A stretch of DNA of 64,000 nucleotides. Origin: Clostridiales bacterium (GTDB lineage Bacteria; Bacillota; Dethiobacteria; Dethiobacterales; Dethiobacteraceae). Below, one piece after another: positions 2,719 to 29,760 of this stretch; positions within the stretch are counted from its first letter, which is position 1, and each line of letters starts with the position of its first letter. A program made the translations under genes and the position numbers. The notes beneath the pieces are model-generated. The model made no database searches. It saw only the letters and a program-made list of their open reading frames with translations, and was not told where the DNA came from. The stretch spans positions 1-64,000 of the forward strand of contig JAGXRM010000026.1 of the NCBI GenBank assembly GCA_018335855.1, written 5' to 3'.

Positions 2719-2995
2719 AGCAGGTGCAAAGTTTTCCGAAGTGAAAGAACTTTTGTTGAAGGATGAAGAATTCAAAACAGAGTACAAAAAGCTAAAACCG
2801 CGTTATGATGTAATTTCACAAATTATTGAAGCAAGAACAAGCCAGAATATTACACAGGAAGAATTGGCGCTCCGGGTTGGAACTCAAAAATCCAATATCA
2901 GCCGCCTGGAAAGCGGAACGTATAATCCATCCCTTGACTTCCTGGCTAAAGTTGCCCGCTGCCTTGGGAAAGAGGTACAGGTCACCTTAGAATAA
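2708..2995 (+). CDS. HigA-like HTH (Xre) antitoxin
   Basis: A 95-residue protein starting at tandem ATG codons (2708, 2711), overlapping the toxin stop, with AGAAGG upstream. Residues from about 40 form a Cro/C1-type helix-turn-helix (TQEELALRVGTQKSNISRLE, then PSLDFLAKVARCLG). The N-terminal 35 residues probably wrap the toxin. It should neutralise the partner and repress the promoter palindrome at 2308-2325. Confidence 0.85.
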   Translation: MMSKAGAKFSEVKELLLKDEEFKTEYKKLKPRYDVISQIIEARTSQNITQEELALRVGTQKSNISRLESGTYNPSLDFLAKVARCLGKEVQVTLE

Positions 2996-3145
2996 AGTAT
3001 TGAGAAGTCATAAAGATTAATATAAGCAATGTTTAGAATTTATTGGGAAAAATTAAATGCCGGGCACGGAGAAAAAAGATGCATGGCATGTAACCGTATT
3101 CGCACAAAAAAGGAGGTTGGCACACTATAGGCACCATTGGAAAAA

Positions 3146-3187: not shown

Positions 3188-3196
3188 TAAATTCAA

Positions 3197-3282
3197 TGGT
3201 GCCGAAGGCCGGACTCGAACCGGCACAGTCAGAGACCGCTTGATTTTGAGTCAAGTGCGTCTGCCAATTCCGCCACTTCGGC
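3197..3282 (-). tRNA. tRNA-Leu (anticodon CAA)
   Basis: An 86-base class II tRNA with encoded CCA. The acceptor stem is GCCGAAG/CTTCGGC, the anticodon stem CTTGA/TCAAG has loop CTCAAAA (anticodon CAA, reading UUG), there is a long variable arm, and the T arm carries GGTTCGAGTCC. It is nearly identical to the copy at 29675-29760. The two differences are a compensating G-C to A-T change in the variable-arm stem. Confidence 0.97.
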
Positions 3283-3425
3283 AATAAACCCTTTAATCTT
3301 CTCATTCTTAAATCATCTATAGTTGCACATTCTGAATACCAAATGTCTTACCGTGAGACTCGCTGACGCAAAATTGATCCCCTTCGCGTTGGCGATTCTT
3401 TTTTTTGCAAATTCCGAAATGAGCT

Positions 3426-3502: not shown

Positions 3503-4961
3503 TTATTTAACTAGAGGGACGGCACTTAGTTCTGTTCGAATACCCGTATAAGGTGTGAAGTACCGATATCCTCCAGCTGTACTACCAACATGTAAGCCAT
3601 AATAAGTAGTGTGCCATTGACCGAAAAGGTACTCACGATAATATACCGGACCACCGCTATCGCCAGCCCCAGCGTTGTAATCAACTTCTACCTGATTATA
3701 CAGCGTCCCAAAGGCCGCACTATATTTTGACTTCTTTGTTGCTATTACTGTTCCAAATGTTACAAGAGTAGTTCTACCTGATTTATATACTGTTTGACCA
3801 ACAGTAGGGTCATAATAATCGTTTACATCAATAATTGTACCGCTCCCAGTATGGATACCCTGTCGAACGCTTGAGAAAGCAATGCGGGCAGCATCGGCAT
3901 TCCCATTTGATGGTGCTGTAAGGTTATTGGTTCCCGCAGGACGTGATCCATCTGGCTGGTACATTTGTGTACCACTCGGTAGACGAGTTGGAAGACCATT
4001 AACAAAAGGCCCCAAGTGTCCAGCAACTATATAGTACAGAGCCCCCTGTGCTAACATTACGTGCGGCAATGTTTGTGGTGCCTCCTTGCCAACTTGATGC
4101 ACAACTAACACCACCAGGTATGTTTGTGTAAATGCTATCGTATGAATGCAACTCAGTCTCGGTTGCACTCCACCTAAATAGCATAGGAAGCTCATCTATT
4201 CCCGTACTTGTCGCCTCTTTTTTAAGCTGATTGTACAGCTTATTAAGAAAAGTATCATCTACCATTTCTTTTTTATCTTCAGCGAGTTCAATGACAAAGT
4301 AGCCCGTGATTTCTACTCCGTGCGAAAATATCGGGCCATTGGGGTAGTATAATTCGCTATTAAGTCTGATGGGTTCAGCAAAATCCTCTAATTTTTTATA
4401 CCAACTTCCTTTTCCAGTCTCTGTATTAAATGAGGATGGAATTCTCCCCATTGTTTTAAATGAATTGTCTGTTAGTTGTTTAATAAGTAATCCTCGAACA
4501 TCATTTAATGCCTCTTTTGTTTCTTCCTTGTTCATGTTCGTTGGCAAAATACGTTCTGGCAATTTTTCAATAAGATATTCTCTAATTGCACGCCGTTCTT
4601 GTATTTCCAAAATTGGATTTTGAAACATTGTATTAGGAGATATTTCTTTAGAGCTTGCTTTATCAATCTCGTACCAATAATTTGACAGCCTGTCAAGCAA
4701 AGTATCCCGGACATTACGGTCTAAGCTACTAAGTAAGTCTTCATACTCTGCCATGGTTAAATTCATGATGTCAATATCAAGACTCTGTTCGTTAACAAAC
4801 TGCTCAACAATTGTTTTTATACTTTCTTGATGCCCATCTATAATTTCTTCCCACCAATTAGCCGATACATTGCTGTCCCTAGCAAGTGCTAAAGGCAATC
4901 CCATACTAAAAATCACAAGAATTAATAAAAAGGATACGCATTTAAATAGATTTGCTTTCAA
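3503..4961 (-). pseudogene. Secreted trypsin-like serine protease, frameshifted
   Basis: It starts at TTG 4961 behind a GGGGGG ribosome binding site with a signal peptide (KANLFKCVSFLLILVIFSMG...ALA). The first frame runs to TAA 3999. A second frame, overlapping from about 4195, continues the same protein to 3503. The joined product would be about 480 residues: a long N-terminal region, then a chymotrypsin-fold domain with VAGHLGPF (candidate catalytic His), SGRTT, and GAGDSGGPVYY (catalytic Ser in GDSGGP). A one-base frame change near 4030-4070 separates the His and Ser halves, so the gene as read cannot give active enzyme unless ribosomes shift. A sequencing error is the other explanation. 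Confidence 0.8.
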
Positions 4962-5386
4962 TTTTCTTACCCCCCAGATTATTTGGTTCTCATCATAACA
5001 TTTCCGTCGTATATCAGCAAGGATATATGACGAGAGAAGAGAGGAAGAGTGCCGATGTTTCGGGCATTCTTTGAAGCTCTGAACGATGTCGTACTTGAAT
5101 CAACGTTGACCCACGATAAAAAATAAGGAAGAGAGATCCACGCTCAAACGAAGCTATCGAAAGAAACGATTATCTCTCTATTTATTAGGTGAGCTGCCAT
5201 AGATAATAACAAGCAGTATTCATCCCTGATTTTACTCTCGGTCGTATGGGCAAATTTTGACTCCGAGTTGTTTGCTGTAGAGTTGAGTATACTGTCTATT
5301 AGACGGGTATAAATAAAACCAAACAATTCAAACTGAGATGAATAATGCTCTTCCTCACAGGGTAAACTCATACCCTAAAAAACTTG
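4962..5386. other. Intergenic, no convincing gene
   Basis: Short frames on both strands (minus 5144-5371; plus 5055-5126, starting MFRAFFEALNDVV behind GAGGAAG) show no recognisable family. The region is AT-rich and lies between the broken protease and the eut promoter. The 23-residue frame at 5055 could be a scrap of a lost gene. Confidence 0.4.
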
Positions 5387-5415
5387 TTGCAATATTTAAA
5401 ATATTAAGATATAAT
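5387..5415 (+). promoter_or_regulatory. Sigma-A-type promoter ahead of eutVW
   Basis: TTGCAA (5387-5392), a 17-base spacer and a perfect TATAAT (5410-5415). If used, it gives a leader of about 350 bases before eutV. Confidence 0.55.
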
Positions 5416-5770
5416 TCAATTAAATTAAATAAAAATATTACACAGTGGAGTGTAATAGGTTATGCGATGTGGCTACTGAGGGGTGTGGAGCACCCTGAGG
5501 TTGCCTTTTGTGTATTGGAAGAATATTTGTAATTTTTCCCTCTATGTGAGCATAGATGTTAGCATAAATAAATTATAATAGACATTTCGGACTCTTTTCT
5601 CCCTGGCTATTATTAGTTATCGGACAAGCGCCTTGTTTGTAACAATATTTACTGGGTGAAAGTACGTGATACTGAAGCTAGGAGTGTATGCTTAGCGCCT
5701 GAAAGCTAACCTAAATACAATCAACTGAGCAAAGAAGCTCAGTACGGTTGCTTATTAAGGAGGGAGAAAA
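5416..5770 (+). promoter_or_regulatory. Long structured leader of eutV with ANTAR-like hairpins
   Basis: The leader has no supported gene. Near its end are two tandem hairpins: TTAGC/GCTAA (5692-5696 with 5705-5709, 8-base loop) and a 7-bp ACTGAGC/GCTCAGT stem (5724-5730 with 5737-5743). The second has the hexaloop AAAGAA, with A at position 1 and G at position 4, as ANTAR proteins such as EutV require. No terminator follows, so any control here would act differently from the eutW-eutA element. Other pairings in the leader (GAGGGGTG region near 5480, ACAAG/CTTGT near 5625) suggest more structure. The eutV ribosome binding site is AAGGAGGGAG at 5757-5766. Confidence 0.4.
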
Positions 5771-6340
5771 ATGATCTTAAGGGTAGTAATAGCCGATGAC
5801 GAACCTATTACTAGAATGGACCTAAGCGAAATTTTCAGGGAAATGGGTTACGACGTTGTAGGAGAAGCATCCGATGGATTTGACGCTGTTGAACTCTGTC
5901 GGAATTTAAAGCCTGACCTAGTGTTGATGGATATAAAAATGCCTCTTCTCGATGGTTTAAATGCATCAAAAATGATTATCAATGAAGAGTTGGCTACATC
6001 TGTGGTATTGTTGACCGCCTACAGTAGTAATGAATTTATAGAGCGTGCAAAAGAAGCCGGTGTTATGGGATATATTGTGAAACCTGTTGATGGTAAATAC
6101 TTAATGCCTTCTATTGAAGTGGCTGTGTGTAAGGGGCGGGAAATACAGGAAATAAAGAGCAAAATGAAAACAATGAAGGATCAGTTAGATGCACGAAAGA
6201 TAATCGAGAAAGCAAAAGGGATCCTCATGGTTAAACAGGAGATGACAGAGGAAGAAGCTTATAATGAAATTAGAAAAATAAGTATGAATAAACGGTGCCC
6301 TATGAAACAGGTTGCCTCAGCTATTGTTACAAATGGATAA
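5771..6340 (+). CDS. eutV: EutV, ANTAR-domain response regulator
   Basis: 189 residues. The receiver domain (about 1-120) has acidic pocket D9/D10, phospho-acceptor D54 in LVLMDIKMP, T82 and K104 (VKP). A coiled linker leads to a C-terminal ANTAR RNA-binding domain (about 126-186: IIEKAKGILM, then EEAYNEIRKISMNKR). When phosphorylated by EutW, EutV proteins dimerise and bind paired hexaloop hairpins in nascent mRNA, preventing terminator formation. A matching target lies at 7787-7859. The gene is followed 17 bases later by eutW, as in other Firmicutes eut loci. Confidence 0.93.
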   Translation: MILRVVIADDEPITRMDLSEIFREMGYDVVGEASDGFDAVELCRNLKPDLVLMDIKMPLLDGLNASKMIINEELATSVVLLTAYSSNEFIERAKEAGVMGYIVKPVDGKYLMPSIEVAVCKGREIQEIKSKMKTMKDQLDARKIIEKAKGILMVKQEMTEEEAYNEIRKISMNKRCPMKQVASAIVTNG

Positions 6341-6357
6341 GCCCGAGGTGAGTCGGA

Positions 6358-7773
6358 ATGCATAAATTAAGAGAACTATGTAATGCACACACCAGTTTAT
6401 CAGAGCCTGATATAGCGCAGCTGGAGAGTATTGCAGTGAACCTGCCGATTATTGCTGAACTGGTAAAGGCAGATGTATTTATAGACTGTATTACACGAGA
6501 CAGAAATGCGGCTATTGTTGTTGCAGAAGCGAAGCCTCCGGGACATCCGTCTATGTATAAGCATTCGGTGGTAGGGGAGCTGGCCTTACGAGAAAATGAA
6601 CCGGCTGCGTTAAGAACTTTGGAAATTGGTATGCCGACAAGAGATTTAAAAGCAATTACTCAGGAAAATATGACAGTGAAACAAAATGTCGTTGCAATAA
6701 AGAATAAGCAGGAAAAGACAATTGCAGTGTTAATTATGGAAGAGGATGTTACAGAACGGGTAATTCAGAATAAACAAATGGAGGTTCTGGCAGAAACAGC
6801 TGAGCAATTGAGTGAAACCTTGTTAACTTTTATGGAAGATGAAAGAACGATTACTAATTATGTTAACGATGCTATTGTCATATTTGATCGCTATGGGAGA
6901 GCAACTTATTCTAATCCTGTAGCCTATGAATTATATAAAAAGTTAGGGTATAAAGATCATATTATCGGTATGCATTTTAATAACCTTGTTTTGGACGGGA
7001 CGATATTCAAGAATAATATCTTAGAACAGGACTATCATATGAAGGATGTTGATATAGGAGATTTATCACTACAAGTAAAATACGCAGTAATGAAGCATAA
7101 AAAAATATTAAGTGGCATGATTATGTTAATTAAAGATATTACAGATGTGAAAGAAAAAGAAAAAGAGTTGATTCTAAAATCGGTAGCAATTCGAGAGATT
7201 CATCATCGTGTCAAAAATAACCTTCAAACTATTGCCAGCCTTCTAAGGCTACAGTCCCGAAGAATTGATAATGAAACTGTAAAAAAATATTTTCAAGAAA
7301 GCATTAACAGGATACTAAGCATTGCCATAACCCATGAAATTTTAGCGCAAAAAGGTGTTGACAATGTTGATATTAAAACTATCATCTCCAGAATTAAAGA
7401 AAGTGCGTTGGACTATGAGCTTATCTTAAACAAAAATATTACTCTGAACATTATCGGTGATAATTTGATTATTGACTCGGACAAAGCTACTTCGATTGCA
7501 TTAGTAGTAAATGAGCTACTGCAAAATTGTTTTCAATATGCCTTTAAGGAAAAAAGCGTAGGTTCGATAGAAGTGTGGATTCAAAAAGGCAGTATGTATT
7601 CCAGTATTTTTATTATAGATAATGGCGGCGGTTTTGATATCAATAATATCCGCAAAGGGAGCCTGGGACTCAAAATAGTCGAACAAATCGTAAAGGAAAA
7701 ACTTAAGGGTGAGTTCAGCATTGATTCATCCGATAGAGGAACAAAAATCATATTTGATTTTAAAAACGAATAG
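6358..7773 (+). CDS. eutW: EutW, ethanolamine-sensing histidine kinase
   Basis: 471 residues without membrane segments, so cytosolic. An N-terminal PdtaS/EutW-type GAF-like sensor (about 1-150) is followed by a PAS domain (about 165-275), then a HisKA_2 dimerisation helix with the phospho-acceptor in REIHHRVKNNLQ (His 282/283). The HATPase domain has the N box NELLQNC and G boxes DNGGGFD and GSLGLKIV. In enterococci EutW autophosphorylates with ethanolamine and passes phosphate to EutV. Its position right after eutV supports the same circuit here. Confidence 0.92.
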   Translation: MHKLRELCNAHTSLSEPDIAQLESIAVNLPIIAELVKADVFIDCITRDRNAAIVVAEAKPPGHPSMYKHSVVGELALRENEPAALRTLEIGMPTRDLKAITQENMTVKQNVVAIKNKQEKTIAVLIMEEDVTERVIQNKQMEVLAETAEQLSETLLTFMEDERTITNYVNDAIVIFDRYGRATYSNPVAYELYKKLGYKDHIIGMHFNNLVLDGTIFKNNILEQDYHMKDVDIGDLSLQVKYAVMKHKKILSGMIMLIKDITDVKEKEKELILKSVAIREIHHRVKNNLQTIASLLRLQSRRIDNETVKKYFQESINRILSIAITHEILAQKGVDNVDIKTIISRIKESALDYELILNKNITLNIIGDNLIIDSDKATSIALVVNELLQNCFQYAFKEKSVGSIEVWIQKGSMYSSIFIIDNGGGFDINNIRKGSLGLKIVEQIVKEKLKGEFSIDSSDRGTKIIFDFKNE

Positions 7774-7786
7774 AATATAAATGTAA

Positions 7787-7859
7787 AGGCACAAAGCAGT
7801 GCCTGGTTTAAAGCAACGAAGCTAATGAGGAATACGAATATTCCTTGTTAGCTTTTTTT
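7787..7859 (+). promoter_or_regulatory. EutV (ANTAR) antitermination element with intrinsic terminator
   Basis: P1 is a 6-bp stem AGGCAC/GTGCCT (7787-7792, 7799-7804) with hexaloop AAAGCA. P2 is a short AGC/GCT stem (7812-7814, 7821-7823) with hexaloop AACGAA. Both loops carry the A1 and G4 that ANTAR proteins need. The terminator stem pairs 7819-7834 with 7839-7854, two wobble or mismatch positions, followed by seven T. P2 uses bases 7819-7823, the start of the terminator stem, so the two structures exclude each other. EutV bound to P1-P2 should therefore let polymerase continue into eutA. Confidence 0.85.
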
Positions 7860-7885
7860 GTTTTCTTTAGAAGGGCGGAGTTCAT

Positions 7886-9322
7886 TTGAGGGAGTCAATT
7901 TTGAGTGTAGGAATTGATATTGGCACATCCACAACGCAGTTAATATTTAGCAGAATTATCCTGGAAAATAAAGCCTCAGGTGCATCTGTTCCTAGAATTC
8001 AAATTGTAGGCAAAGAAATTATATATAGAAGTCGTATTTATTTTACACCTTTATTGTCGCAGTCGGAGATTGATACCGACGGAGTTATGCGCATTATAAA
8101 ACAGGAATATAAAAGCGCAGGATTACTCCCTGAAGAAATTGGAACCGGTGCAGTTATTATTACGGGAGAAACGGCCAGAAAAGAGAATGCTGCTCAGTTA
8201 CTTCAGAAGCTTAGCGGTTTTGCGGGCGACTTTGTTGTTGCCACGGCAGGCCCGGATCTGGAGGCTATCTTGGCAGGAAAGGGTGCCGGAGCAGAACAGA
8301 TTTCCAAAGATAAAAACTGTACGGTTATGAATTTAGATATTGGTGGGGGAACTACAAACATCGCTGTATTTAATAACGGAGAAGTTATTGATACAACATG
8401 CCTTGATATTGGAGGGCGGCTGATTCGCTTTAATCGGCACACTGGTAAAACAGATTATGTCTCACCAAAAATAAAAAAACTTGCTGATGAAATGGAGCTT
8501 AATATTGGGTCTGACAGGAAGGCAGAAATCACACATCTAAAAACGATAACTCGAAGAATGTCAGCTATCCTGGAAGAGGCTGTTGGTCTTAGGGAGAAGA
8601 CTCCGGAGTTTAGGATGATTCTTACAACACGGGAACTCAGGCGTAATTACTCTGTTGATTTCGTTACCTTTTCCGGCGGGGTTGCAGACTATATTTATGA
8701 TAAGAATGAGTATGATCTATTTAGGTACGGCGACATTGGTATATTGCTGGCTCAGGCTGTTAAGGAATCCAGGCTGATGACAATGTTTACAATAACAAAA
8801 CCACTAGAAACCTTGAATGCCACTGTAGTAGGAGCAGGGTCATACAGCATGGAAATTAGTGGAAGCACAATTACCTTCACACAGGACGTCTTTCCCCTGA
8901 AAAATATACCTATTATTAAAATGACTCCCAGTGAGGAACAGTTGGATGGCGGCAGCTTCGTAGGAAAAATCAGAGAAAAAGTTCGTTGGTTTTATTTGGA
9001 TGATAAAAGTGTACAACTGGTTGCAATTGCCATAAAAGGAATAGAGAACCCTACATTTCTTAGAGTAAGGCAGATAGCTGAAAGAATAATTAGCGGAATG
9101 GAAGTGATTACACAACAACATCCCTTATTAATAGTTGTCGTAGAACATGATATGGCAAAAGTTTTGGGGCAAACCCTTTATAGGCTATTGGAGTATAAAA
9201 AGGAAGTGGTGTGTATTGACGACATCAAGGTAGATAACGGGGATTATATTGACATTGGCAAACCGCTGGCAAATAACCGTGTGGTTCCGGTTGTCGTGAA
9301 GACCTTAGTTTTTAATTCCTGA
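7886..9322 (+). CDS. eutA: EutA, ethanolamine ammonia-lyase reactivating factor
   Basis: 478 residues from TTG 7886 (ribosome binding site GAAGGGCGGAG). Actin/HSP70-like ATPase fold: phosphate 1 motif VGIDIGTSTTQ at the N-terminus and the second phosphate loop DIGGGTTNIAV near residue 150. EutA exchanges damaged cobalamin from EutBC using ATP and is needed because the lyase inactivates during turnover. It is the first gene after the antitermination element and 16 bases before eutB. Length matches the family. Confidence 0.95.
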   Translation: MRESILSVGIDIGTSTTQLIFSRIILENKASGASVPRIQIVGKEIIYRSRIYFTPLLSQSEIDTDGVMRIIKQEYKSAGLLPEEIGTGAVIITGETARKENAAQLLQKLSGFAGDFVVATAGPDLEAILAGKGAGAEQISKDKNCTVMNLDIGGGTTNIAVFNNGEVIDTTCLDIGGRLIRFNRHTGKTDYVSPKIKKLADEMELNIGSDRKAEITHLKTITRRMSAILEEAVGLREKTPEFRMILTTRELRRNYSVDFVTFSGGVADYIYDKNEYDLFRYGDIGILLAQAVKESRLMTMFTITKPLETLNATVVGAGSYSMEISGSTITFTQDVFPLKNIPIIKMTPSEEQLDGGSFVGKIREKVRWFYLDDKSVQLVAIAIKGIENPTFLRVRQIAERIISGMEVITQQHPLLIVVVEHDMAKVLGQTLYRLLEYKKEVVCIDDIKVDNGDYIDIGKPLANNRVVPVVVKTLVFNS

Positions 9323-9338: not shown

Positions 9339-10700
9339 ATGAGGCTTAAAACCAAACTATTCAAACAGGTTTATCAGTTTAACTCAGTAAAAGAAGTTCT
9401 GGCAAAAGCAAACGAACAAAAATCCGGAGATAGCTTAGCGGAGATTGGTGCTGCTTCTGTTACTGAGAGGGTGGCAGCAAAGGAAGTGTTGAGTAATTTA
9501 ATTTTAAGCGATTTAAGAAATTATCCGGTAGTCCCTTATGAAGATGACGAAGTAACCAGGGTTATTCAGGATAGTGTGAATGAAAAAATTTACACACAGA
9601 TTGAAAACTGGACAGTGTCTGAACTGAGGGAATGGATTCTTGCTCATGACACAACAGGTGAAGATATTAAGAGAATAAGCAGGGGGTTAACCAGTGAAAT
9701 GATAGCAGGCGTGACAAAGATTATGTCAAATCTGGACCTGCTTTATGGTGCAAATAAAATAAGAGTCAGCGCCCACTGTAATACGACTGTCGGATTACCA
9801 GGTACTCTTTCGGCAAGGCTTCAGCCCAATCACCCAACAGATAATATAAATGGAATTATGGCATCAGTGATGGAGGGCTTAAGCTATGGAGTAGGGGATG
9901 CAGTTATTGGCCTCAACCCTGTGGAAGATACATCGGAAAATCTGGCAACTGTACTAAAAACTTTTCAGGAATTCAAGGAAAAATGGAAAATACCAACTCA
10001 AATTTGTGTTTTGGGCCATGTAACAACCCAGATGGAAGCAATTCGACGGGGAGCACCAAGTGACCTGATATTTCAGAGTATTGCAGGCTCTCAAAAAGGG
10101 AATGAAGCCTTTGGTATCTCTGTGGCACTTTTGGACGAGGCTAAGGATTTAGTCATGCGAGAAGGAACTGCAACTGGGCCAAATGTTATGTATTTTGAGA
10201 CAGGTCAGGGATCAGAGCTTTCTTCCGATTCACATTACAATGCAGATCAAGTTACCATGGAGGCCCGCTGCTACGGACTTGCTAAGAGGTATAGTCCTTT
10301 TCTGGTAAATACGGTCGTCGGTTTTATCGGGCCGGAATATCTTTATGACAGTAAACAGGTTATCCGTGCCGGACTTGAAGATCACTTTATGGGTAAGCTG
10401 ACCGGCGTATCTATGGGGGTAGATGTCTGCTACACAAATCATATGAAAGCTGATCAAAACGATGTTGAAAATTTATCTGTTCTGTTAACCAGTGCAGGGT
10501 GCAATTATTTCATGGGTGTGCCCGCCGGGGATGATGTTATGCTTAACTACCAATGCACAGGATATCACGAGACTCCTTCGCTAAGAGAATTGTTAAAGTT
10601 GCGGCCTATCAGAGAGTTTGAACTCTGGTTGGAGACCATGAACCTAATGAAAGACGGCAGGTTAACCGAAAGGGCTGGTGACGCTTCCATTTTTATGTAG
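9339..10700 (+). CDS. eutB: EutB, ethanolamine ammonia-lyase large subunit
   Basis: 453 residues, normal family length. The TIM-barrel catalytic subunit opens MRLKTKLFKQVYQFNSVKEVLAKANE. It contains the substrate and cobalamin region motifs SAHCNTTVGLPGTLSARLQP (about 145-164) and CVLGHVTTQMEA, and ends RAGDASIFM. With EutC it converts ethanolamine to acetaldehyde and ammonia using adenosylcobalamin, inside the microcompartment. The ribosome binding site is GAGAGGTG. The eutA-B-C order matches other Firmicutes. Confidence 0.97.
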   Translation: MRLKTKLFKQVYQFNSVKEVLAKANEQKSGDSLAEIGAASVTERVAAKEVLSNLILSDLRNYPVVPYEDDEVTRVIQDSVNEKIYTQIENWTVSELREWILAHDTTGEDIKRISRGLTSEMIAGVTKIMSNLDLLYGANKIRVSAHCNTTVGLPGTLSARLQPNHPTDNINGIMASVMEGLSYGVGDAVIGLNPVEDTSENLATVLKTFQEFKEKWKIPTQICVLGHVTTQMEAIRRGAPSDLIFQSIAGSQKGNEAFGISVALLDEAKDLVMREGTATGPNVMYFETGQGSELSSDSHYNADQVTMEARCYGLAKRYSPFLVNTVVGFIGPEYLYDSKQVIRAGLEDHFMGKLTGVSMGVDVCYTNHMKADQNDVENLSVLLTSAGCNYFMGVPAGDDVMLNYQCTGYHETPSLRELLKLRPIREFELWLETMNLMKDGRLTERAGDASIFM

Positions 10701-10777
10701 TAAAGGGAGTGGTAAGATGAACTTCAGAAATGTCTTTAGGTACCGAATTTCTTAAATAATGAAGAGGGGGGACGATA

Positions 10778-11674
10778 ATGATTTCTGAAAAAGAGCTTAA
10801 GAGTGTTATAGAACAGGTTTTAGAAGAGTTAGGGATGGCATCAGAAAAAAATAAACTAAATAATTCTCAGGATTTAGCAAGTCAGAAAGACGAAGAATCA
10901 CAGGTTTCTGATGAAGGCTTGTTAGATATTACTGAAGTCGATTTAAAAAAACAGGTACTGGTTCCTGACCCTGAAAATTTAGAGGGGTTATTAAAGATCA
11001 AGGAAACAACACCTGCCAGAATAGGCGTTTGGAGGGCAGGACCCCGGTATAAGACGGAAACGTTACTACGGTTTCGAGCTGATCATGCAGTAGCAATGGA
11101 TGCTGTTTTTACAGATGTATCAGAAGAACTGTTAAGTGAAATGGATTTATTTTCTATCCAAACTATGTGTAATAACAAGGATGAATATCTTACAAGGCCG
11201 GATTTAGGAAGAAAATTTGGTGAAGAAGCATTGCAAGTAGTCAAAAACAGCTGTGTTAAGAACCCTCAAGTACAGATTTATGTGTCTGATGGATTGAGTT
11301 CTACCGCAATTGATGCAAATATCAGAGACATCTTACCAGCTATTATGCAAGGGTTAGAAGGATATGGAGTAAAAGCAGGGACACCTTTTTTTGTTAAATA
11401 CGGCAGAGTTCCCGCAATGGATGTTATATCAGAGACAACAGGTGCAGAAGTAACATGTGTCTTAATTGGCGAAAGGCCGGGTCTTGCTACCGGCGAGAGT
11501 ATGAGTGCTTATATGGCATATAAAGCTACTGTAAATATGCCGGAAGCACGACGAACAGTTGTTTCAAATATTCATAAGGGTGGTACCGCTGCAGTGGAAG
11601 CCGGTGCCCACATAGCTCATGTTTTAAAGCAAATGCTTGACAAAAAGGCAAGCGGACTGGATCTGAAAATGTAA
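10778..11674 (+). CDS. eutC: EutC, ethanolamine ammonia-lyase small subunit
   Basis: 298 residues. The N-terminal helix (EKELKSVIEQVLEELGM) has the look of a BMC encapsulation peptide, followed by a low-complexity linker to about residue 65. The Rossmann-like domain then begins (TPARIGVWRAGPRYKT) and continues with VSDGLSSTAID and IGERPGLATGESMSAYMAY. It binds the nucleotide loop of adenosylcobalamin at the EutB interface. The ribosome binding site is GAGGGGGG. The 77-base gap from eutB holds a weak inverted repeat (AGAAAT/ATTTCT) but no gene. Confidence 0.96.
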   Translation: MISEKELKSVIEQVLEELGMASEKNKLNNSQDLASQKDEESQVSDEGLLDITEVDLKKQVLVPDPENLEGLLKIKETTPARIGVWRAGPRYKTETLLRFRADHAVAMDAVFTDVSEELLSEMDLFSIQTMCNNKDEYLTRPDLGRKFGEEALQVVKNSCVKNPQVQIYVSDGLSSTAIDANIRDILPAIMQGLEGYGVKAGTPFFVKYGRVPAMDVISETTGAEVTCVLIGERPGLATGESMSAYMAYKATVNMPEARRTVVSNIHKGGTAAVEAGAHIAHVLKQMLDKKASGLDLKM

Positions 11675-11699
11675 TAAATCGATGAATGGGGGGATAACT

Positions 11700-12353
11700 G
11701 TGAGGAATGATCCAATCAGAGCAAAAGTTTTAAGTGTCAAACTGATTCCGAATGTCAGCCCGGATTTGGCAAAAGAGCTAAAACTTGAGTCAAACCAAAA
11801 AAGTATTGGGTTGATTACTACAGATATTGATGATGTTTCTTATACGGCACTGGACGAAGCGACAAAAAAAGCAGATGTAATTGTTGTTTATGCCCGTTCT
11901 TTCTATGGTGGTGCCGCAAATGCCAACACTAAGCTGGCAGGTGAATTTATTGGAATACTGGCCGGGCCTGATCCCGCAGAAGTAAAGAGTGGAATAAATG
12001 CAGCTATTGAGTTTATCGAAAATGACGCGTGTTTTTACAGTGCCAACGAAGATGATTCGATTGCTTATTTTGCCCACTGTATCTCCAGAACCGGGTCTTA
12101 CCTGTCGAAAGGTGCAGGGATTGAGCAGGGCGAGGCGATAGCTTACCTGATTGCTCCTCCAATAGAAGCTATGTATGCACTTGATGCTGCTCTTAAAGCA
12201 GCTGATGTAAGAATGGTAGCATTTTACGGGCCTCCATCTGAAACTAACTTTGGCGGTGGGTTACTTACTGGAAGCCAGTCAGCTTGTAAGGCTGCCTGTG
12301 AGGCTTTCGCAGATGCAGTGCTGTATGTAGCTGATAATCCTACGAAAATTTAG
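11700..12353 (+). CDS. eutL: EutL, tandem-domain BMC shell trimer
   Basis: 217 residues from GTG 11700, chosen because the run of G at 11688-11693 then sits at ribosome-binding distance. An ATG at 11682 is in frame but has no such site. Two BMC domains, with family-typical GLITTDIDDVSYTALDEATK, HCISRTGSYLS and PPSETNFGGGLLTGSQ. EutL trimers form large gated pores in the ethanolamine shell and bind ethanolamine. Length is close to the enterobacterial protein. Confidence 0.95.
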   Translation: MRNDPIRAKVLSVKLIPNVSPDLAKELKLESNQKSIGLITTDIDDVSYTALDEATKKADVIVVYARSFYGGAANANTKLAGEFIGILAGPDPAEVKSGINAAIEFIENDACFYSANEDDSIAYFAHCISRTGSYLSKGAGIEQGEAIAYLIAPPIEAMYALDAALKAADVRMVAFYGPPSETNFGGGLLTGSQSACKAACEAFADAVLYVADNPTKI

Positions 12354-12393
12354 GTGAAGATCAGGTTGTTTAGATAGTAGGGTGGTGAATTAT

Positions 12394-12906
12394 TTGAATC
12401 AGCAAGCTATTGGACTGGTGGAAACATACGGGTTTCTGACAGCAGTGGAAGCAGCCGATACCTGTCTAAAAGCGGCAAAAGTGTCTTTTCTTTGTTGCCA
12501 GAAGATAGGCGGTGGAATGGTAACTATCAAGATAGCGGGGGATGTAGGTGCTGTCCAGGCTGCGATTAAGGCTGCCGGTGCTGCCGCAAATAAAGTGGGA
12601 AAGCTCATCGGTACTCACGTAATTCCAAGGCCTGTTCCTAATATTGAAAATTTATTCTTCCCGGAAGTGAATATGAAAAGTCCATTCTCTATTTCAGGAA
12701 CCACTGCCAAAGCAACAGAACAGGTTGAGACTCCTTGTCTATATAAAACGGAGCAGGAATTGAAAGAAATGAAAACTGTAGAACTGCGGGCATTGGCAAG
12801 GAAGTTACCCGGTATAGGTATTGAAAGACGTGCAATTAAATTCGCCAGAAAAGAAGAACTTATAGAAGCCATACTCATCGTTTATAAAGATCAGTACCCC
12901 GGCTAA
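12394..12906 (+). CDS. EutK-like BMC-H protein with a C-terminal SAP/Rho-N-like tail
   Basis: 170 residues from TTG 12394 (ribosome binding site GGTGGTG; in-frame GTG codons at 12382/12385 are alternatives). Residues 1-85 are a BMC hexamer domain (AIGLVETYGFLTAVEAADTC ... HVIPRPVPNIE). A Ser/Thr-rich linker leads to a basic helical domain, LKEMKTVELRALARKLP then IKFARKEELIEAIL, resembling SAP or Rho-N nucleic-acid-binding modules. Salmonella EutK also has a C-terminal extension with a nucleic-acid-binding fold, but a winged helix, so this is analogous rather than the same. The loop carries CCQKIGGGM, with two Cys near the pore-lining segment. Confidence 0.8.
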   Translation: MNQQAIGLVETYGFLTAVEAADTCLKAAKVSFLCCQKIGGGMVTIKIAGDVGAVQAAIKAAGAAANKVGKLIGTHVIPRPVPNIENLFFPEVNMKSPFSISGTTAKATEQVETPCLYKTEQELKEMKTVELRALARKLPGIGIERRAIKFARKEELIEAILIVYKDQYPG

Positions 12907-12924
12907 ATTGAAAGGAGAGAAAAA

Positions 12925-13209
12925 ATGTCAGCTACAAGCGCACTTGGCATGATTGAGACAAAAGGACTGGTCGGATCAATTGAAGCGGCAGATGCTATGG
13001 TAAAGGCAGCTAATGTAACACTGGTTGGAAAAGTCCTTGTTGGAGGCGGTTTAGTATCGGTTATGGTTCGTGGTGATGTGGGTGCCGTTAAGGCTGCAAC
13101 AGATGCTGGCGCTGCTGCAGCTCAGAGAGTAGGTGAATTGATTTCAGTACATGTTATTCCGAGACCTCATGGTGAAGTTGAATTAATACTACCACAGCAG
13201 GAAAGCTGA
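12925..13209 (+). CDS. eutM: EutM-like BMC-H shell protein (copy 1)
   Basis: 94 residues, a single BMC domain ([20 protein letters not shown] ... [19 protein letters not shown] ... [11 protein letters not shown]). It forms hexamers that tile the shell facets and pass small metabolites through a central pore. The ribosome binding site is AAGGAGAG. The next gene encodes an almost identical protein, so this is a recent tandem duplication. Confidence 0.95.
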
Positions 13210-13263
13210 TTTATGTAAAAAAGTATACTATGGAAAAAGTAAAAAAGATTAGGAGGAAGGATT

Positions 13264-13551
13264 ATGAGTACAACTGTTGCTTTAGGAATGATTGAAACAA
13301 AGGGGCTTGTAGGGTCCATAGAGGCAGCCGATGCTATGGTAAAGGCAGCAAATGTAACATTAATAGGCAAGGTTCTTGTCGGGGGCGGTTTGGTAACAGT
13401 TATGGTCCGTGGTGACGTAGGTGCTGTAAAGGCTGCTACTGACGCCGGAGCTGCTGCAGCTGAGAGAGTGGGAGAATTACTTTCTGTCCATGTTATTCCA
13501 CGTCCCCATAATGAGGTAGAATTCATTCTTCCCACCATATCAGAAAAATAA
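13264..13551 (+). CDS. eutM: EutM-like BMC-H shell protein (copy 2)
   Basis: 95 residues, differing from the upstream copy at only about eight positions before the last few residues (for example S5V, V34I, S45T, Q67E, I73L, G83N). The C-terminus diverges (PTISEK instead of PQQES). The pore-lining KVLVGGGL segment is unchanged. The ribosome binding site is AGGAGGAAGG. The pair probably make mixed or dose-adjusted hexamers. Confidence 0.95.
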
Positions 13552-13650
13552 GAATGAACAACACTTATGTCCCTTGCCTGATTTGAAAGGCCGAAGCCAG
13601 AGCAGAAATCTGTGATTAATATTTACATGCAAGGAAATGGGGTACAGTGC

Positions 13651-14475
13651 ATGTTGGGAAATGAGATGGTCAGAAAACTGGAAGAAGTTATTGAAAAACC
13701 CCTTAAACAATCTCCAGGCACACAACTTTACACAGGAGTGGATCTGGGGACAGCTTATATTGTCATTGTGGTACTTGATTCCATGCTTCGGCCGGTAGCA
13801 GGTGCAATGCAGTTTGCCCAGGTAGTAAGAGACGGCTTGGTTGTAGAGTACATGGAGGCAATAAAAATTGTCCAAAATCTAAAAGCCCTCCTTGAAGAGC
13901 AATTAGGAGTGGAGCTCTCAGTAGCAGCTACAGCTTTTCCACCTGGTGTATCTATCGGTGACAGACAAAGCATTAAGTATGTGGTGGAAGCTGCCGGATT
14001 TGAAGTTGTTAAAATGGATGATGAGCCTTCGGTGGCAAATAGAGTTTTAGGTATAACAGACGGTGCAATTGTTGACATCGGAGGAGGCACCACTGGAATT
14101 GCTATTGTTAAGAACGGAGAGGTGGTGTATGTCGCCGATGAACCAACGGGAGGAACCCATTTTACTCTGGTTTTAGCCGGAGCACGGCGGATTCCGTTTA
14201 CAGATGCTGAAGCCATTAAAGCAGACCCACGTAACTACAAGGAGATTCAACCTCTACTTATACCTGTTATGGAAAAAGTTGCGGCTATCATTAAAAGGCA
14301 TATTCAGGGACATAAGGTAAGGGATATTTACCTTGTAGGTGGAACCAGTTGCTTGCCCGGCATTGAAACTGTGGTGGAGAAGCATACAGGTGTTAAGACC
14401 ACAAAACCATCAAACCCCTTGCTTGTAACGCCTCTCGGTATTGCTATGAGCTGCCTGAACAATGTAGACCAGTGA
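13651..14475 (+). CDS. eutJ: EutJ, HSP70-like chaperone of the eut operon
   Basis: 274 residues from ATG 13651 (GGGG about nine bases upstream; earlier in-frame GTG 13612 and ATG 13627 are possible). Actin-like ATPase: GVDLGTAYIV, then DIGGGTTGIAIV and YLVGGTSCLPGIE. EutJ is a DnaK/FtsA-related protein of unproven role, thought to help assemble or maintain compartment enzymes. It lies between the shell genes and eutN as in many loci. Confidence 0.92.
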   Translation: MLGNEMVRKLEEVIEKPLKQSPGTQLYTGVDLGTAYIVIVVLDSMLRPVAGAMQFAQVVRDGLVVEYMEAIKIVQNLKALLEEQLGVELSVAATAFPPGVSIGDRQSIKYVVEAAGFEVVKMDDEPSVANRVLGITDGAIVDIGGGTTGIAIVKNGEVVYVADEPTGGTHFTLVLAGARRIPFTDAEAIKADPRNYKEIQPLLIPVMEKVAAIIKRHIQGHKVRDIYLVGGTSCLPGIETVVEKHTGVKTTKPSNPLLVTPLGIAMSCLNNVDQ

Positions 14476-14502
14476 CTTTGTTGTAAAAATAGGAGTGATC
14501 GC

Positions 14503-14817
14503 ATGTTACTGGGAAGAGTTGTTGGAAATGTTTGGTCAACACGCAAAGATGATTCATTAATAGGAATAAAATTAATGGTTGTACAGCTTCTGGATACTCC
14601 AGAAGAGAAGCCGGTTAAAACAATTGTAGCTGCTGACTTAATTGGTGCGGGAGTAGGAGAAATGGTAATCTTAACAATCGGTAGTTCAGCCCGTAAAGTA
14701 GATGGCCTCGATAATTCACCTATTGATGCAACGATTGTTGGCATTGTTGATGAAAATGAGCTGGAGGAATCTGGTGATGACCAGAGAGCAGCAGGTCGAA
14801 TTACTGGAAAAAATTAA
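14503..14817 (+). CDS. eutN: EutN/CcmL-type pentameric vertex protein
   Basis: 104 residues starting MLLGRVVGNVWSTRKDDSL, with LIGIKLMVVQ and GAGVGEMVILTIGSSAR. This is the BMC-P fold that caps shell vertices as pentamers. The last residues (QRAAGRITGKN) extend past the family core and overlap the next gene by 41 bases, suggesting translational coupling. Confidence 0.94.
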   Translation: MLLGRVVGNVWSTRKDDSLIGIKLMVVQLLDTPEEKPVKTIVAADLIGAGVGEMVILTIGSSARKVDGLDNSPIDATIVGIVDENELEESGDDQRAAGRITGKN

Positions 14818-16102
14818 ATCTGCCGGTGTTGTTGGTGCAGGAGGGGCTGGCTTTCCTACTCATACAAAACTACTTGCCACTGCTGAGTATTTGGTAATCA
14901 ACGGTGCTGAATGTGAGCCTCTCCTGCAAACCGATCAACGGTTAATGCAACTAAAGGCCAGTGAGCTGTTATATGCTCTTGAGGTTCTTATTGACGCAAT
15001 AGGAGTAACCAAGGCAATTATAGCAGTTAAAATGAAGTACGAACAAGCTTGGCAATCTCTTCTTCAATTTAAAAAGGACCCCAGGATAGAGTTATTTCCT
15101 CTTCAAGACTTTTACCCGGCTGGTGATGAGCAGGTATTAGTCTATGAAGTACTTGGTCGCATTGTTCCGCAGGGAGGAATTCCAATTAAAGTCGGCTGCA
15201 TCGTTACCAATGTGGAGACTTTACTAAATGTATCTGCAGCCATCGATGGTTACCCTGTGCTTGATAAATATGTCTGCATTACCGGGGCTGTAAGTACTCC
15301 TTTAACAGCTAAGCTCCCTCTGGGAACAACCATAAGGGATGCTGTTTCACTATCACAACCATATGTAACAGATACCCTGCAGGTTATTGAAGGCGGTCCT
15401 GTAATGGGTAAAATTGTTACAGATTTGGACGCTCCAATAACTAAGACTACGAAAGGATTAATAGTGTTATCCCAAGAGCATGTACTTGTCAGTCAGAAAC
15501 AATTACCGTTATCCAGAATATTAAAGAGAGCACAGTCGGTCTGTGTGCAGTGCATGAGATGTACTGATCTTTGTCCAAGAGCACTATTGGGCCATGACAT
15601 AAAACCACACAAGATTATGCGTTCTATTAGCTATGGAATAAGCGACACTGAAGTGTTAAGCGGGTCGTTGCTATGTTCAGAATGTGGTGTATGTGAGTTC
15701 GCTTGTCTGATGCAGTTGTCTCCCAGAAAAGTAAACAGCATCTTAAAGGTTAAATTGGGTAAAGCGGGGATAAAGGCTTCAATAAAGGGTGCCGGGCCTG
15801 TTGCCCCGGAAAGAGAGTTCAGGAAGCTGAGTTCGGATAGATTGATTGCCAGTATTGGTTTATCACAGTTTCATTATGCTGCCCCGATACAAGATGTGCA
15901 ATTTGAACCACAAAAAGTAATTATTCCGCTCAAACAGCACCTGGGAGCACCGTCTTATCCAGTAGTTAAGGTAGGACAAAAGGTTCAGCGTGGAGACTTG
16001 CTAGGCGAGATTCCTGAAGAAGCATTGGGTGCCAGAATACATGCCAGTATTTCTGGTACTGTAACGGATATAGCTGACCGGATAACCATTTTGTCGGATT
16101 AA
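14777..16102 (+). CDS. pduS: PduS-like cobalamin reductase (RnfC-type Fe-S flavoprotein)
   Basis: 441 residues from ATG 14777 (ribosome binding site CTGGAGG, inside the end of eutN). The N-terminal RnfC/NuoF-like nucleotide-flavin part has GVVGAGGAGFPTHTK and NGAECEPLLQTDQ. An SLBB domain follows, then two 4Fe-4S motifs (CVQCMRCTDLCP; CSECGVCEFACLM) and a C-terminal barrel (GARIHASISGTVTDI). PduS reduces cob(III)alamin so that an adenosyltransferase (here EutT) can make the coenzyme, and may pass electrons through the PduT-like shell protein encoded next. Confidence 0.9.
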   Translation: MTREQQVELLEKIKSAGVVGAGGAGFPTHTKLLATAEYLVINGAECEPLLQTDQRLMQLKASELLYALEVLIDAIGVTKAIIAVKMKYEQAWQSLLQFKKDPRIELFPLQDFYPAGDEQVLVYEVLGRIVPQGGIPIKVGCIVTNVETLLNVSAAIDGYPVLDKYVCITGAVSTPLTAKLPLGTTIRDAVSLSQPYVTDTLQVIEGGPVMGKIVTDLDAPITKTTKGLIVLSQEHVLVSQKQLPLSRILKRAQSVCVQCMRCTDLCPRALLGHDIKPHKIMRSISYGISDTEVLSGSLLCSECGVCEFACLMQLSPRKVNSILKVKLGKAGIKASIKGAGPVAPEREFRKLSSDRLIASIGLSQFHYAAPIQDVQFEPQKVIIPLKQHLGAPSYPVVKVGQKVQRGDLLGEIPEEALGARIHASISGTVTDIADRITILSD

Positions 16103-16117
16103 TTGGGGGTAGTGCAT

Positions 16118-16666
16118 GTGTATAAATCAATTGGACTGGTGGAATTCGGGAGCATTGCTTTGGGAATAATCGGCGCTGATGTCATGCTCAAGACAGCAGA
16201 GGTTGAACTAATTACAGCTGGTACTGTATGTCCCGGCAAATATACGGTAATGGTAGGCGGAGGTGTTGCTGCCGTCGAAAGCTCTGTCAGGGCGGGAGTT
16301 AAGCAAAATGAAACATCCGTTATAGATGAATTTATCATTCCCAATGTACATCCTGAGGTTTTCCCTGCTATTGCCGGTGTAAACAATATATCGCAAATAG
16401 ATTCCCTTGGAGTTATTGAGACTTTTTCTGTTGCATCCTTAATTATCGCTGCCGATGCTGCAGTGAAAGCAGGTGCAGTCCGGTTAGTAGAAATACGATT
16501 GGCTATTGGAATGGGAGGTAAATCGTTTGTCACTTTAACCGGGGATGTGGCGGCCGTTAAGTCCGCCGTTCAGGCCGGCAGTGACGTTGCGGCCGTAAGT
16601 GGAATGCTAGCTAACAAGGTTATTATACCCTCACCCCACTCGCGGCTAAAAGAAGTCATAATCTAA
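16118..16666 (+). CDS. pduT: PduT-like tandem BMC shell protein with Fe-S-type Cys
   Basis: 182 residues from GTG 16118 (run of G at 16105-16109 as ribosome binding site; GTG 16112 and TTG 16103 also in frame). Two BMC domains: SIGLVEFGSIALGIIGADVM with TAGTVCPGKYTVMVGGG, and SLGVIETFSVASLIIAADAA with GIGMGGK-like IGMGGKSFV. The CPG Cys corresponds to the residue that binds a 4Fe-4S cluster on the three-fold axis of PduT. It directly follows the PduS-like gene, fitting an electron relay across the shell. Confidence 0.9.
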   Translation: MYKSIGLVEFGSIALGIIGADVMLKTAEVELITAGTVCPGKYTVMVGGGVAAVESSVRAGVKQNETSVIDEFIIPNVHPEVFPAIAGVNNISQIDSLGVIETFSVASLIIAADAAVKAGAVRLVEIRLAIGMGGKSFVTLTGDVAAVKSAVQAGSDVAAVSGMLANKVIIPSPHSRLKEVII

Positions 16667-16685
16667 GTGGAAGCGAGGTGATATT

Positions 16686-17303
16686 ATGAAGAAGCTTATA
16701 TCGACAGAAACAATAAAGCAATATCAAAAAAATGGTGAGAGTCAGATAGCTGTAGACGCGAACACGATTATCACCTGCGCTGCACGAGATCTGGCCTCGG
16801 AGTTGGATATATGTTTTGTCAGTTCGGTGCATAGGGAAGAAAGCCCGGCACCAGAACCTTGTATGGCGCCCAAACCCGAGCAGGAAAACACTGACCTTAC
16901 ATTAGTATCTCTAATCTTGCAAAAAGTACTCGAACAGTTAAATATCTCCCAGGCATGTAACCCGGTAATTGAAGCCGATATCTCGGGGTTTCGTCTGGTG
17001 CACTCAAATGCCGATAATGAAGCGGTTTGCAAAGAAAGCTCAAATAGCGACAAGGTAACAAATAAAGACATCATTACAGTCAGAGATGGTATAAAAGCTG
17101 GTTTTATATCAATAAATTCCACAAACTACACACGGCTTTTAAATTGTCAGGAGGTCAATTACGTAATTGAAGGTAATCTTGAAGTTATAATCGGAGATAA
17201 AACTTTTAGTTGCAGGGCGGGAGATGTTTTAATTCTTCCGCAGGATAAAGAACTGATATTTTCAAGCTCAGACTGCGTTAAGATGTTCTATGTAACCTGT
17301 TAG
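16686..17303 (+). CDS. eutQ: EutQ, cupin-domain acetate-kinase-like protein
   Basis: 205 residues. The N-terminal part (MKKLISTETIKQYQKNGESQ, then TIITCAARDLASE) is typical of EutQ and a variable linker follows. A C-terminal cupin (about 125-205) has NYVIEGNLEVIIGDKTFSC and RAGDVLILP. EutQ has been linked to compartment assembly and to acetate kinase activity in Salmonella. The ribosome binding site is AAGCGAGGTG. Confidence 0.88.
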   Translation: MKKLISTETIKQYQKNGESQIAVDANTIITCAARDLASELDICFVSSVHREESPAPEPCMAPKPEQENTDLTLVSLILQKVLEQLNISQACNPVIEADISGFRLVHSNADNEAVCKESSNSDKVTNKDIITVRDGIKAGFISINSTNYTRLLNCQEVNYVIEGNLEVIIGDKTFSCRAGDVLILPQDKELIFSSSDCVKMFYVTC

Positions 17304-17344
17304 CTGAATAGTTGTCAAGGTTGGCTAGAGGAGGCTGATTCCGG

Positions 17345-18793
17345 ATGCTTGATTACGACCTAGCTTCAGTGCAAGAGGCAAGAAATTTGGCAAGGATTGC
17401 TTCGGAAGCACAAAAATGGCTCGACGAAATTTCTCAGCAAGAAGCAGACAGACTTGTTTATGCCCTCGTTCAGGCGGCCGATGTCAATGCTAAACGTTTA
17501 GCACGTATGGCTGTGGAAGAAACAGGATTTGGTATCTATCAAGATAAAGTTATAAAAAACCAGTTTGCCTCGAGGAACGTCTGGTCATCTGTTAAAGATG
17601 TGAAGACTGTCGGAGTTATCTATGAGGACAGAGATAAGAAAATAGTAGAAATAGCCGTCCCGGTCGGGGTGATTATGGGGTTAGTTCCATCAACTAATCC
17701 TACTTCAACAGTAATTTATAAAGCGATAATTTCCCTAAAGTCAAGGAACGCCATTATTTTTTCACCTCATCCCTCAGCGGCTAAATGTACTTTTGCTGCG
17801 GCACAGGTTATGCAGGAAGCTGCTGTTAATGCCGGTGCGCCAGGAGGGGTAATAGGATGCCTTAGTAAGGTCACAATGGAAGCAACCGAATCTTTGATGC
17901 GCGATCAAAATGTTTCATTGATACTGGCGACAGGCGGTAGCGGCATGGTAAAAGCGGCCTACAGTGTCGGAAAACCTGCTCTGGGTGTTGGACCCGGTAA
18001 CGTACCTGCTTTTATTGAGCGTAGTGCCGATATTAAACAGTCTGTTGCTAATATTTTGAGAGGAAAATGTTTTGACAATGGAACCATTTGTGCTTCAGAG
18101 CAGGCAGTAGTAACTGAAGAGTGTATTAAAGAGCAGGTAATGGATGAGTTCAGGGCTCAGGGTGGATATTTCCTAAGCCAAAAAGAAGTAAAGCAGGTTT
18201 GTGGTTTTTTGTTTGATGACCGGGGCGGAATGAATGCTGCCTCTGTGGGAAAGAGCCCGGAGGTAATTGCGCAACAGGCAGGTATCGAGATACCTGCGGG
18301 TACAAAAGTACTTATTGGCGAACAGGAAGGCGTAGGCGTAGCATACCCTCTATCCAGGGAAAAACTTACTACAGTTCTGGCGTTCTATACAGAAAAAGAC
18401 TGGCATGCTGCCTGTACACGTTGTATCGAGTTGTTGAATGAGGGGGGTATAGGGCATACCCTGGTAATCCATTCTCAGAACGAGGATGTTATCAGAGAAT
18501 TTGCCCTAAAGAAACCAGTGTTTCGTATTCTTGTAAATACGCCTTCATCCTTAGGTGGAATTGGTTATACTACCGGCCTGGTTCCTGCATTAACGTTAGG
18601 AAGTGGTACTTGGGGCGGAAGTGCCACATCTGACAATGTCTCACCTCTAAACCTTATTAATCGTAAACGGTTAGCGTATCACCTTGAAAATAGTATGGAG
18701 CAGGTGTCATCATCTCATGGCCAAGCGGTACTCTCTGTGTCAAACCATGAATTAGAGACAATTATAAAGAGAGTTATATCCCGTCTGGCATAG
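17345..18793 (+). CDS. eutE: EutE/PduP, CoA-acylating acetaldehyde dehydrogenase
   Basis: 482 residues. Opens with an amphipathic helix (YDLASVQEARNLARIASEAQ) able to act as an encapsulation peptide. The NAD fold has GLVPSTNPTSTVI, and the active-site Cys is in DNGTICASEQ. The C-terminal tail (SNHELETIIKRVISRLA) is another amphipathic helix. It oxidises toxic acetaldehyde to acetyl-CoA inside the compartment. The ribosome binding site is AGAGGAGG. It is the only aldehyde-handling enzyme in the locus. Confidence 0.94.
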   Translation: MLDYDLASVQEARNLARIASEAQKWLDEISQQEADRLVYALVQAADVNAKRLARMAVEETGFGIYQDKVIKNQFASRNVWSSVKDVKTVGVIYEDRDKKIVEIAVPVGVIMGLVPSTNPTSTVIYKAIISLKSRNAIIFSPHPSAAKCTFAAAQVMQEAAVNAGAPGGVIGCLSKVTMEATESLMRDQNVSLILATGGSGMVKAAYSVGKPALGVGPGNVPAFIERSADIKQSVANILRGKCFDNGTICASEQAVVTEECIKEQVMDEFRAQGGYFLSQKEVKQVCGFLFDDRGGMNAASVGKSPEVIAQQAGIEIPAGTKVLIGEQEGVGVAYPLSREKLTTVLAFYTEKDWHAACTRCIELLNEGGIGHTLVIHSQNEDVIREFALKKPVFRILVNTPSSLGGIGYTTGLVPALTLGSGTWGGSATSDNVSPLNLINRKRLAYHLENSMEQVSSSHGQAVLSVSNHELETIIKRVISRLA

Positions 18794-18847
18794 TAAAGTT
18801 ACTGCAGAAGAGCATTACAAAAATGTATTATAGGGGATGATTTATTA

Positions 18848-19468
18848 ATGGCGGAACTTAGGGCGTATGTTTATATTGATAGAATGCAAGCCCAATATGC
18901 AGCTTATGTAGGAACTGTAATTCGTGGGGATACGCCTGTTGAGGGCATGGCGGAACTGTATATAGAAATAGCACCGGGCATTGAAATATTTAGGACAATA
19001 GATGTAGCACTTAAAGCAGCTGAGGTAAGGCCGGCTTCTCTGGTTATTGAAAGAGAGTTCGGTATGATGGAAATTCATGGGTGGGAACAATCGGCTGTTC
19101 TTACCGCAGGCCAGGCCGTTTTACAATATCTGGGACTGCAGGAAAGTGATCGTCTTAAACCTAATGTGGTCTCTGCCCAGATTATTAGCAATATTGACCC
19201 GTATCAGGCTCAGTTAATTAACAGGTTTAAAAATGGAAGCATGATGCTTGGTGGCCAGGCACTTTATATTCTGGAAGTCTTTCCGGCTGCTTATGCAGTA
19301 CTTGCCGCAAACGAAGCTGAGAAAGCAGTTGGTATAAATATTGTCGATATAAGAAATGTCGGTCGTTTTGGCAGGCTATTTATATCGGGTACGGAGGCAG
19401 AGGTATTGGCCGCTAAAGAAGCATCCATTATTGCAATTGAATCTTTGACCGGAGCGGAAGGGAAATAA
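18848..19468 (+). CDS. Tandem BMC-domain shell protein, divergent
   Basis: 206 residues with two BMC-like repeats. The first is at about 32-95 (MAELYIEIAPGIEIFRTIDV, AALKAAEV-type helix, REFGMMEIHG). The second is at about 135-200 (ALYILEVFPAAYAVLAANEA, FGRLFISGTEAEVLAAKEAS). Neither has the IGGG-type pore loop of EutM. It is not EutL and not the PduT-like protein, so the locus encodes a third trimeric tile. It lies between eutE and eutT, and its pore specificity is unknown. Confidence 0.75.
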   Translation: MAELRAYVYIDRMQAQYAAYVGTVIRGDTPVEGMAELYIEIAPGIEIFRTIDVALKAAEVRPASLVIEREFGMMEIHGWEQSAVLTAGQAVLQYLGLQESDRLKPNVVSAQIISNIDPYQAQLINRFKNGSMMLGGQALYILEVFPAAYAVLAANEAEKAVGINIVDIRNVGRFGRLFISGTEAEVLAAKEASIIAIESLTGAEGK

Positions 19469-19487
19469 GAAAGAAAGGGTGGATGGT

Positions 19488-20240: not shown

Positions 20241-20403
20241 GATGGGGTGACTACCAGTGCAATAGAATTATTCTTAACAGAAAGGAGTTGTTTGCCAAGG
20301 AAAGAATGAGGCAGAAAGCCGGGAATCGTTTAATCATCATTCTTAACTCTCTATTAAGGGCGACCACGAAATCGCTTGATTAATTTCTACGAGGAGGAAG
20401 AAT
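20241..20403 (+). promoter_or_regulatory. Structured gap before eutH
   Basis: The 163-base gap has no supported gene. It holds several small inverted repeats: CTTAA/TTAAG (20343-20359), GCGA/TCGC around CCACGAAA (near 20360-20375), and AAGAATGA/TCATTCTT. The last small hairpin lacks the A1 of the ANTAR loop and no terminator is visible, so an EutV site is only a possibility. The eutH ribosome binding site GAGGAGGAAG sits at 20391-20400. Confidence 0.3.
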
Positions 20404-21629: not shown

Positions 21630-21664
21630 GAAAGCCTTGACGAAGAGTTCGTCAGGGCTTTATT
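21630..21664 (+). terminator. Intrinsic terminator of the eut operon
   Basis: The stem AAAGCCTTGACGAA pairs with TTCGTCAGGGCTTT around GAG, followed by ATTTTG. Confidence 0.85.
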
Positions 21665-29662: not shown

Positions 29663-29674
29663 GTGTTTATAAGA

Positions 29675-29760
29675 TGGTGCCGAAGGCCGGACTCGAACCG
29701 GCACAATCAGAGATCGCTTGATTTTGAGTCAAGTGCGTCTGCCAATTCCGCCACTTCGGC
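29675..29760 (-). tRNA. tRNA-Leu (anticodon CAA), second copy
   Basis: 86 bases with CCA and anticodon loop CTCAAAA. It differs from the 3197-3282 copy at only two positions, which pair with each other in the variable arm (GTC/GAC becomes ATC/GAT). Flanks on both sides are unrelated to the first copy. Confidence 0.97.

Follow-up and report, generated by a model that had tools for sequence, protein, structure and literature searches.

EutV-responsive antitermination is described in Enterococcus faecalis for the eutP, eutG, eutS, and eutA elements (Ramesh 2012, PMC3369931). The two hairpins of these elements, P1 and P2, are separated by a linker of 5-12 nt, and swapping the AC/GU closing pairs of the eutP P1 abolished induction (PMC3369931). 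In E. faecalis and Listeria, control by AdoCbl is added by a cobalamin riboswitch RNA that itself carries an EutV site (EutX/Rli55). We analyzed a window of 64,000 nt from a Clostridiales bacterium (contig JAGXRM010000026.1), which contains a eut operon. The region between eutW and eutA (7787-7858) is, very likely, a transcription attenuator of the ANTAR dual-hexaloop type that responds to EutV.

The element between eutW and eutA

The gap between the two genes is 112 nt long and contains, on the plus strand, a P1 hairpin (7787-7804), a linker of 7 nt (7805-7811), a P2 hairpin (7812-7823), and an intrinsic terminator with its U tract (7818-7858). P1, AGGCAC[AAAGCA]GUGCCU, has 6 Watson-Crick pairs (-8.7 kcal/mol) and was identified from the sequence and by a covariance model; P2, AGC[AACGAA]GCU, has 3 pairs, was identified from the sequence and from pairing probabilities, and excludes the terminator. 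The linker was read from the sequence, and the terminator was found by folding and by a terminator search; its stem (7818-7855) has 17 pairs and a 4-nt loop, is followed by a U-rich tail, and has an energy of -19.5 kcal/mol. In both loops position 1 is A and position 4 is G, as a first-pass annotation of this DNA had stated with the right coordinates and letters. The same annotation gave 7819-7823 as the bases common to P2 and the 5' arm of the terminator. The overlap is real but its extent was one base short: since the terminator spans 7818-7855, the shared bases are 7818-7823.

The element thus passes the tests of the class, i.e., two hexaloop stems of at least 3 pairs (A1, G4), a linker of about 5-12 nt, and a P2 that overlaps the terminator. 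P1 also has the AC/GU closing pairs, and the loop letters, closing pairs, linker, and terminator overlap fit the requirements known from E. faecalis, which bears out the earlier assignment to the enterococcal ANTAR dual-hairpin design. The region 7770-7875 folds at -34 kcal/mol (z -5.55), a value equaled by none of 200 shuffles. In shuffled 64-kb windows, a search of both strands for two ANNGNN hexaloops ahead of an overlapping terminator gave 0.6 hits per window. Not one of 40 such windows had a hit with a P1 of at least 5 pairs and a terminator score of at least 30, as in the eutA element. The other dual-hexaloop match in the window, at 35725, is within a coding frame and has a poor terminator.

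The first-pass annotation had proposed a search with a covariance model. We used one built from 11 elements, all from the eut loci of other organisms, so that the sites studied here were held out. Its top match in the whole 2.96-Mb genome is 7787-7825 (34.1 bits, E 3.9e-6); second comes 5438-5476, in the leader of eutV, with 21.9 bits and E 0.012. The ten matches after these (at most 16.2 bits) are mostly in coding sequence and none has an evident overlapping terminator. The other intergenic stretches of the operon have no strong dual element beyond the one at 5436. Rfam has nothing at the eutA site, neither in the window at gathering score nor in 4950-8000 at E up to 1.

Growing-transcript thermodynamics gave the closing pair of P2 a probability of 0.81-0.90 up to position 7850 and of 0 at 7858. 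Termination is the default, because the terminator displaces P2 once its 3' arm is made, and therefore a protein holding P2 would allow read-through. We infer from the family (PMC3369931, PMC8934654, PMC5821096) that this protein is EutV and that the ethanolamine signal arrives via EutW. As the polymerase moves past eutW, P1 and P2 would form first. When active EutV is absent, the terminator arm would open P2 and transcription would stop ahead of eutA. When ethanolamine is sensed by EutW, EutV would be phosphorylated and would bind both hexaloops, holding P2 and blocking the terminator, and the polymerase would then continue into eutA and the downstream genes. By analogy, EutV binding, its phosphorylation, and a response to ethanolamine are thus expected at this element.

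Regulator, operon, and relatives

From 5771 on, the genes are in the order eutV, eutW, eutA, eutB, and eutC (assigned from position and sequence), with shell-protein genes, followed by eutQ, eutT, and eutH, all on the plus strand. The response regulator gene eutV (5771-6340) lies 1.4 kb upstream of the eutA element and encodes REC and ANTAR domains (PF00072, PF03861), the latter being the only ANTAR domain in the genome. An alignment with E. faecalis EutV (6wsh, E 1.4e-59) shows that the protein has 10 of the 11 residues through which its E. faecalis counterpart contacts RNA in the solved structure (R142, K143, K147, K149, E160, Y164, R168, M172, N173, and R175). The one changed contact is R177, replaced by P; in E. 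faecalis this residue was part of a triple mutant without binding. A domain search of eutW (6358-7773) revealed a sensor kinase with GAF_PdtaS, HisKA_2, and HATPase domains, and the gene has no match among 59 related genomes. The first gene past the switch is eutA (7886-9322; PF06277, E 2e-196), and the rest of the operon, from eutB to eutQ, eutT, and eutH (9339-21522), is putatively under both gates described in this work. A terminator lies 3' of eutH (21631-21661). The only matches to eutP in the genome are weak, on a different contig, and inside longer frames.

The 26 kb that include the eut operon lie between two minus-strand tRNA-Leu(CAA) genes (3196-3283 and 29674-29761), which are 98% identical over 88 nt, and the eut block is possibly a genomic island. 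Also in the window, two overlapping frames on the minus strand (3503-4961) look as if a frameshift had split a single trypsin-like secreted protein, and a c-di-AMP riboswitch (61877-62010, 84 bits) precedes a gene of peptidoglycan-binding and cell wall hydrolase-like sequence.

Among relatives, whose loci were fetched with EutV, the element is also found at the eutW-eutA junction of Maledivibacter halophilus (L008), Lutispora (L009), and a Clostridiaceae MAG (L012), as well as in the Desulfobacterota Desulfoluna (L010) and a Desulfobacterales MAG (L011). Pfam confirmed EutA in all of these but L011. In a set of 13 elements with 111 pair cells, standard pairs fill 98% of the cells and covariation is 0.531, compared with 0.203 after shuffling and no more than 0.152 after sliding, the P1 figures being flattered because the elements were partly chosen by their P1 pairing. 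P2 has 3 pairs in 11 of the 13, and two pairs with a U-U in the remaining 2. A P2 of this length, which the first-pass annotation took for unusually short, is therefore normal, and the stems of the published motif are of 3 pairs by definition. In 100 related genomes, model matches at E up to 0.1 were found in 22 of the 59 with an ANTAR gene and in 4 of the 41 without (p 0.0015), i.e., the regulator and its RNA sites occur together. None of the 41 genomes without an ANTAR gene has a match at 21 bits, and their best (20.1 bits) falls just under the eutV-leader copy. With the top model match, a lone ANTAR protein encoded nearby, and a conserved junction, the complete EutV switch that had been claimed between eutW and eutA is supported. 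We base the assignment on the anatomy of the element, its overlap with the terminator, its conserved position, its covariation, and the single matching regulator.

Some further elements were found in other genomes. Desulfoluna spongiiphila has three of EutV type (2980-3022, 5036-5076, and 8119-8161), which precede eutH, a shell-protein gene, and eutA, and whose P2 loops start with G. Genomes of the same class as ours (L112 and L115, 1500-1570 in both) have ANTAR-type elements ahead of a gene for a glutamate synthase-like glutamine amidotransferase, with P1 loops AACUUC or AGCUUU in which position 4 is U, not G.

A putative second gate in the eutV leader

The second match of the model belongs to a weaker element (5436-5513) 0.3 kb upstream of eutV, to which the first-pass annotation had not referred. 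It has a P1 identified by sequence and model (5436-5457, UAUUACAC[AGUGGA]GUGUAAUA), a linker of 6 nt, a P2 identified by the model (5464-5473, GC[GAUGUG]GC), and a terminator (5471-5510, -20.5 kcal/mol, fold z -3.77) with a short U4 tail, all on the plus strand. P2 and terminator overlap, as the class demands, and G5472-C5473 are common to the two and paired in both folds. P2 has only two pairs and its loop has G at positions 1 and 4, which leaves it outside the membership rule of A1 and 3 pairs. Upstream are promoter-like boxes TTGCAA-17-TATAAT (5387-5415, 10 of 12 consensus positions), a consensus match that is equally common in shuffled sequence. In relatives an element lies upstream of eutP-eutV, and one is present at the head of the corresponding gene block (L008 at 4956, L009 at 5021, L012 at 5085, and another locus, L013, at 639). 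Elements of L010, L011, and L013 likewise have P2 loops that start with G. We consider 5436-5510 a likely variant EutV element, not a full member of the class. The second-best match in the genome thus lies ahead of eutV and comes with promoter-like boxes and a terminator of its own, so that two EutV gates probably control the operon, of which the first would make eutVW self-activating: if the leader element gates eutVW as its counterpart does at eutA, the result would be a positive feedback. The function of the leader copy is in this sense our inference. What is new here is this element as a likely second gate, since the eutA element itself is a usual representative of a class already known.

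Other readings of these structures have to be weighed. A strong terminator is present at 7818-7858 and terminators internal to operons are common, such that it could be a plain partial terminator that fixes the eutVW:eutABC ratio, with hexaloops arising by chance. We hold this to be highly improbable, given that the dual hexaloop with terminator is rare in shuffles, that the site is the best match in the genome of a model from other species, and that distant eut operons have an element at the same junction. It is easier to doubt the leader. The eutA element alone could be real and the hairpins at 5436-5510 due to chance or to another regulator, in line with a match of only 21.9 bits (genome E 0.012), a two-pair, G-first P2 and a U4 tail, and the existence of 20-bit matches in genomes lacking ANTAR. 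Yet this match is the second of the genome and lies directly 5' of its sole ANTAR gene, the corresponding gene block of relatives starts with an element too (L008, L009, L012, and L013), and G-first P2 loops are seen in L010, L011, and L013. We see a chance origin or another regulator as rather improbable and prefer a variant EutV element.

A third reading concerns the 240 nt between the leader terminator and eutV (5530-5770), which have no annotated open frame and no Rfam match, and whose fold is 3.3 sd beyond shuffles; in relatives, eutP is at this place. Just 5' of the eutV ribosome site is a lone hairpin, ACUGAGC[AAAGAA]GCUCAGU (5724-5743, plus strand), whose core GAGCAANGAAGCTC is present in a single copy in the genome. 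EutV could act there to alter the translation of eutV, which would make part of the control something other than attenuation. The AGC[AAAGAA]GCU fits the P2 consensus 28 nt from the start codon, and EutV binds single hexaloops in vitro (PMC8934654). Against this, a partner hairpin at permitted distance is absent, no relative has a hairpin at that place, and the covariance model gave only 8.5 bits. We find such translational control unlikely.

Comparison with known eut systems

The EutX/Rli55 arm appears to be absent, because none of the five cobalamin riboswitches of the genome is on the eut contig (all are on others) or has an EutV site: the whole-genome search gave a model match beside 0 of 5. 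Hence, no pair of riboswitch and EutV site places this genome among those with an EutX/Rli55 sponge. The eut region has no cobalamin riboswitch, nor do the eut loci of relatives within the fetched stretches. A more far-reaching reading, which we see as possible but less probable than not, is a system of two serial EutV gates and no cobalamin sponge, where phosphorylated EutV would open its own leader via a G-first P2 loop. If true, loop position 1 would be a purine rather than strictly A, and ethanolamine alone would drive a self-amplifying switch, without the AdoCbl signal of E. faecalis and Listeria.

Our results locate a textbook ANTAR switch in a eut operon with a kinase gene unmatched in 59 related genomes, and provide a natural example of EutV control in a genome where an EutX-like riboswitch decoy was not found. 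Unlike in E. faecalis, which has four elements, there are apparently two, of which the second precedes eutV and has a P2 loop that starts with G, and there is no eutP and no EutX nearby or with the riboswitches. The EutX/Rli55 RNA, a riboswitch-controlled decoy, carries an EutV site as does this locus, even if the decoy itself was not found in the genome. Clostridium eut loci are similar in being regulated by EutV at a locus without a cobalamin riboswitch, and the need of AdoCbl for induction at such loci is a question posed for that genus (PMC5821096); here, the search extended to the whole genome and found no EutV site by any of the five riboswitches. The nasF (NasR) and amiE (AmiR) leaders, compared from the literature alone, follow the same dual-hexaloop logic with regulators and signals different from those of the eut switch. 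The closest likeness remains with the E. faecalis antiterminators (Ramesh 2012, PMC3369931), which share with the element studied here the two A..G.. hexaloops, the AC/GU on P1, a linker within 5-12 nt, a P2 inside the 5' arm of the terminator, and a position preceding eutA.
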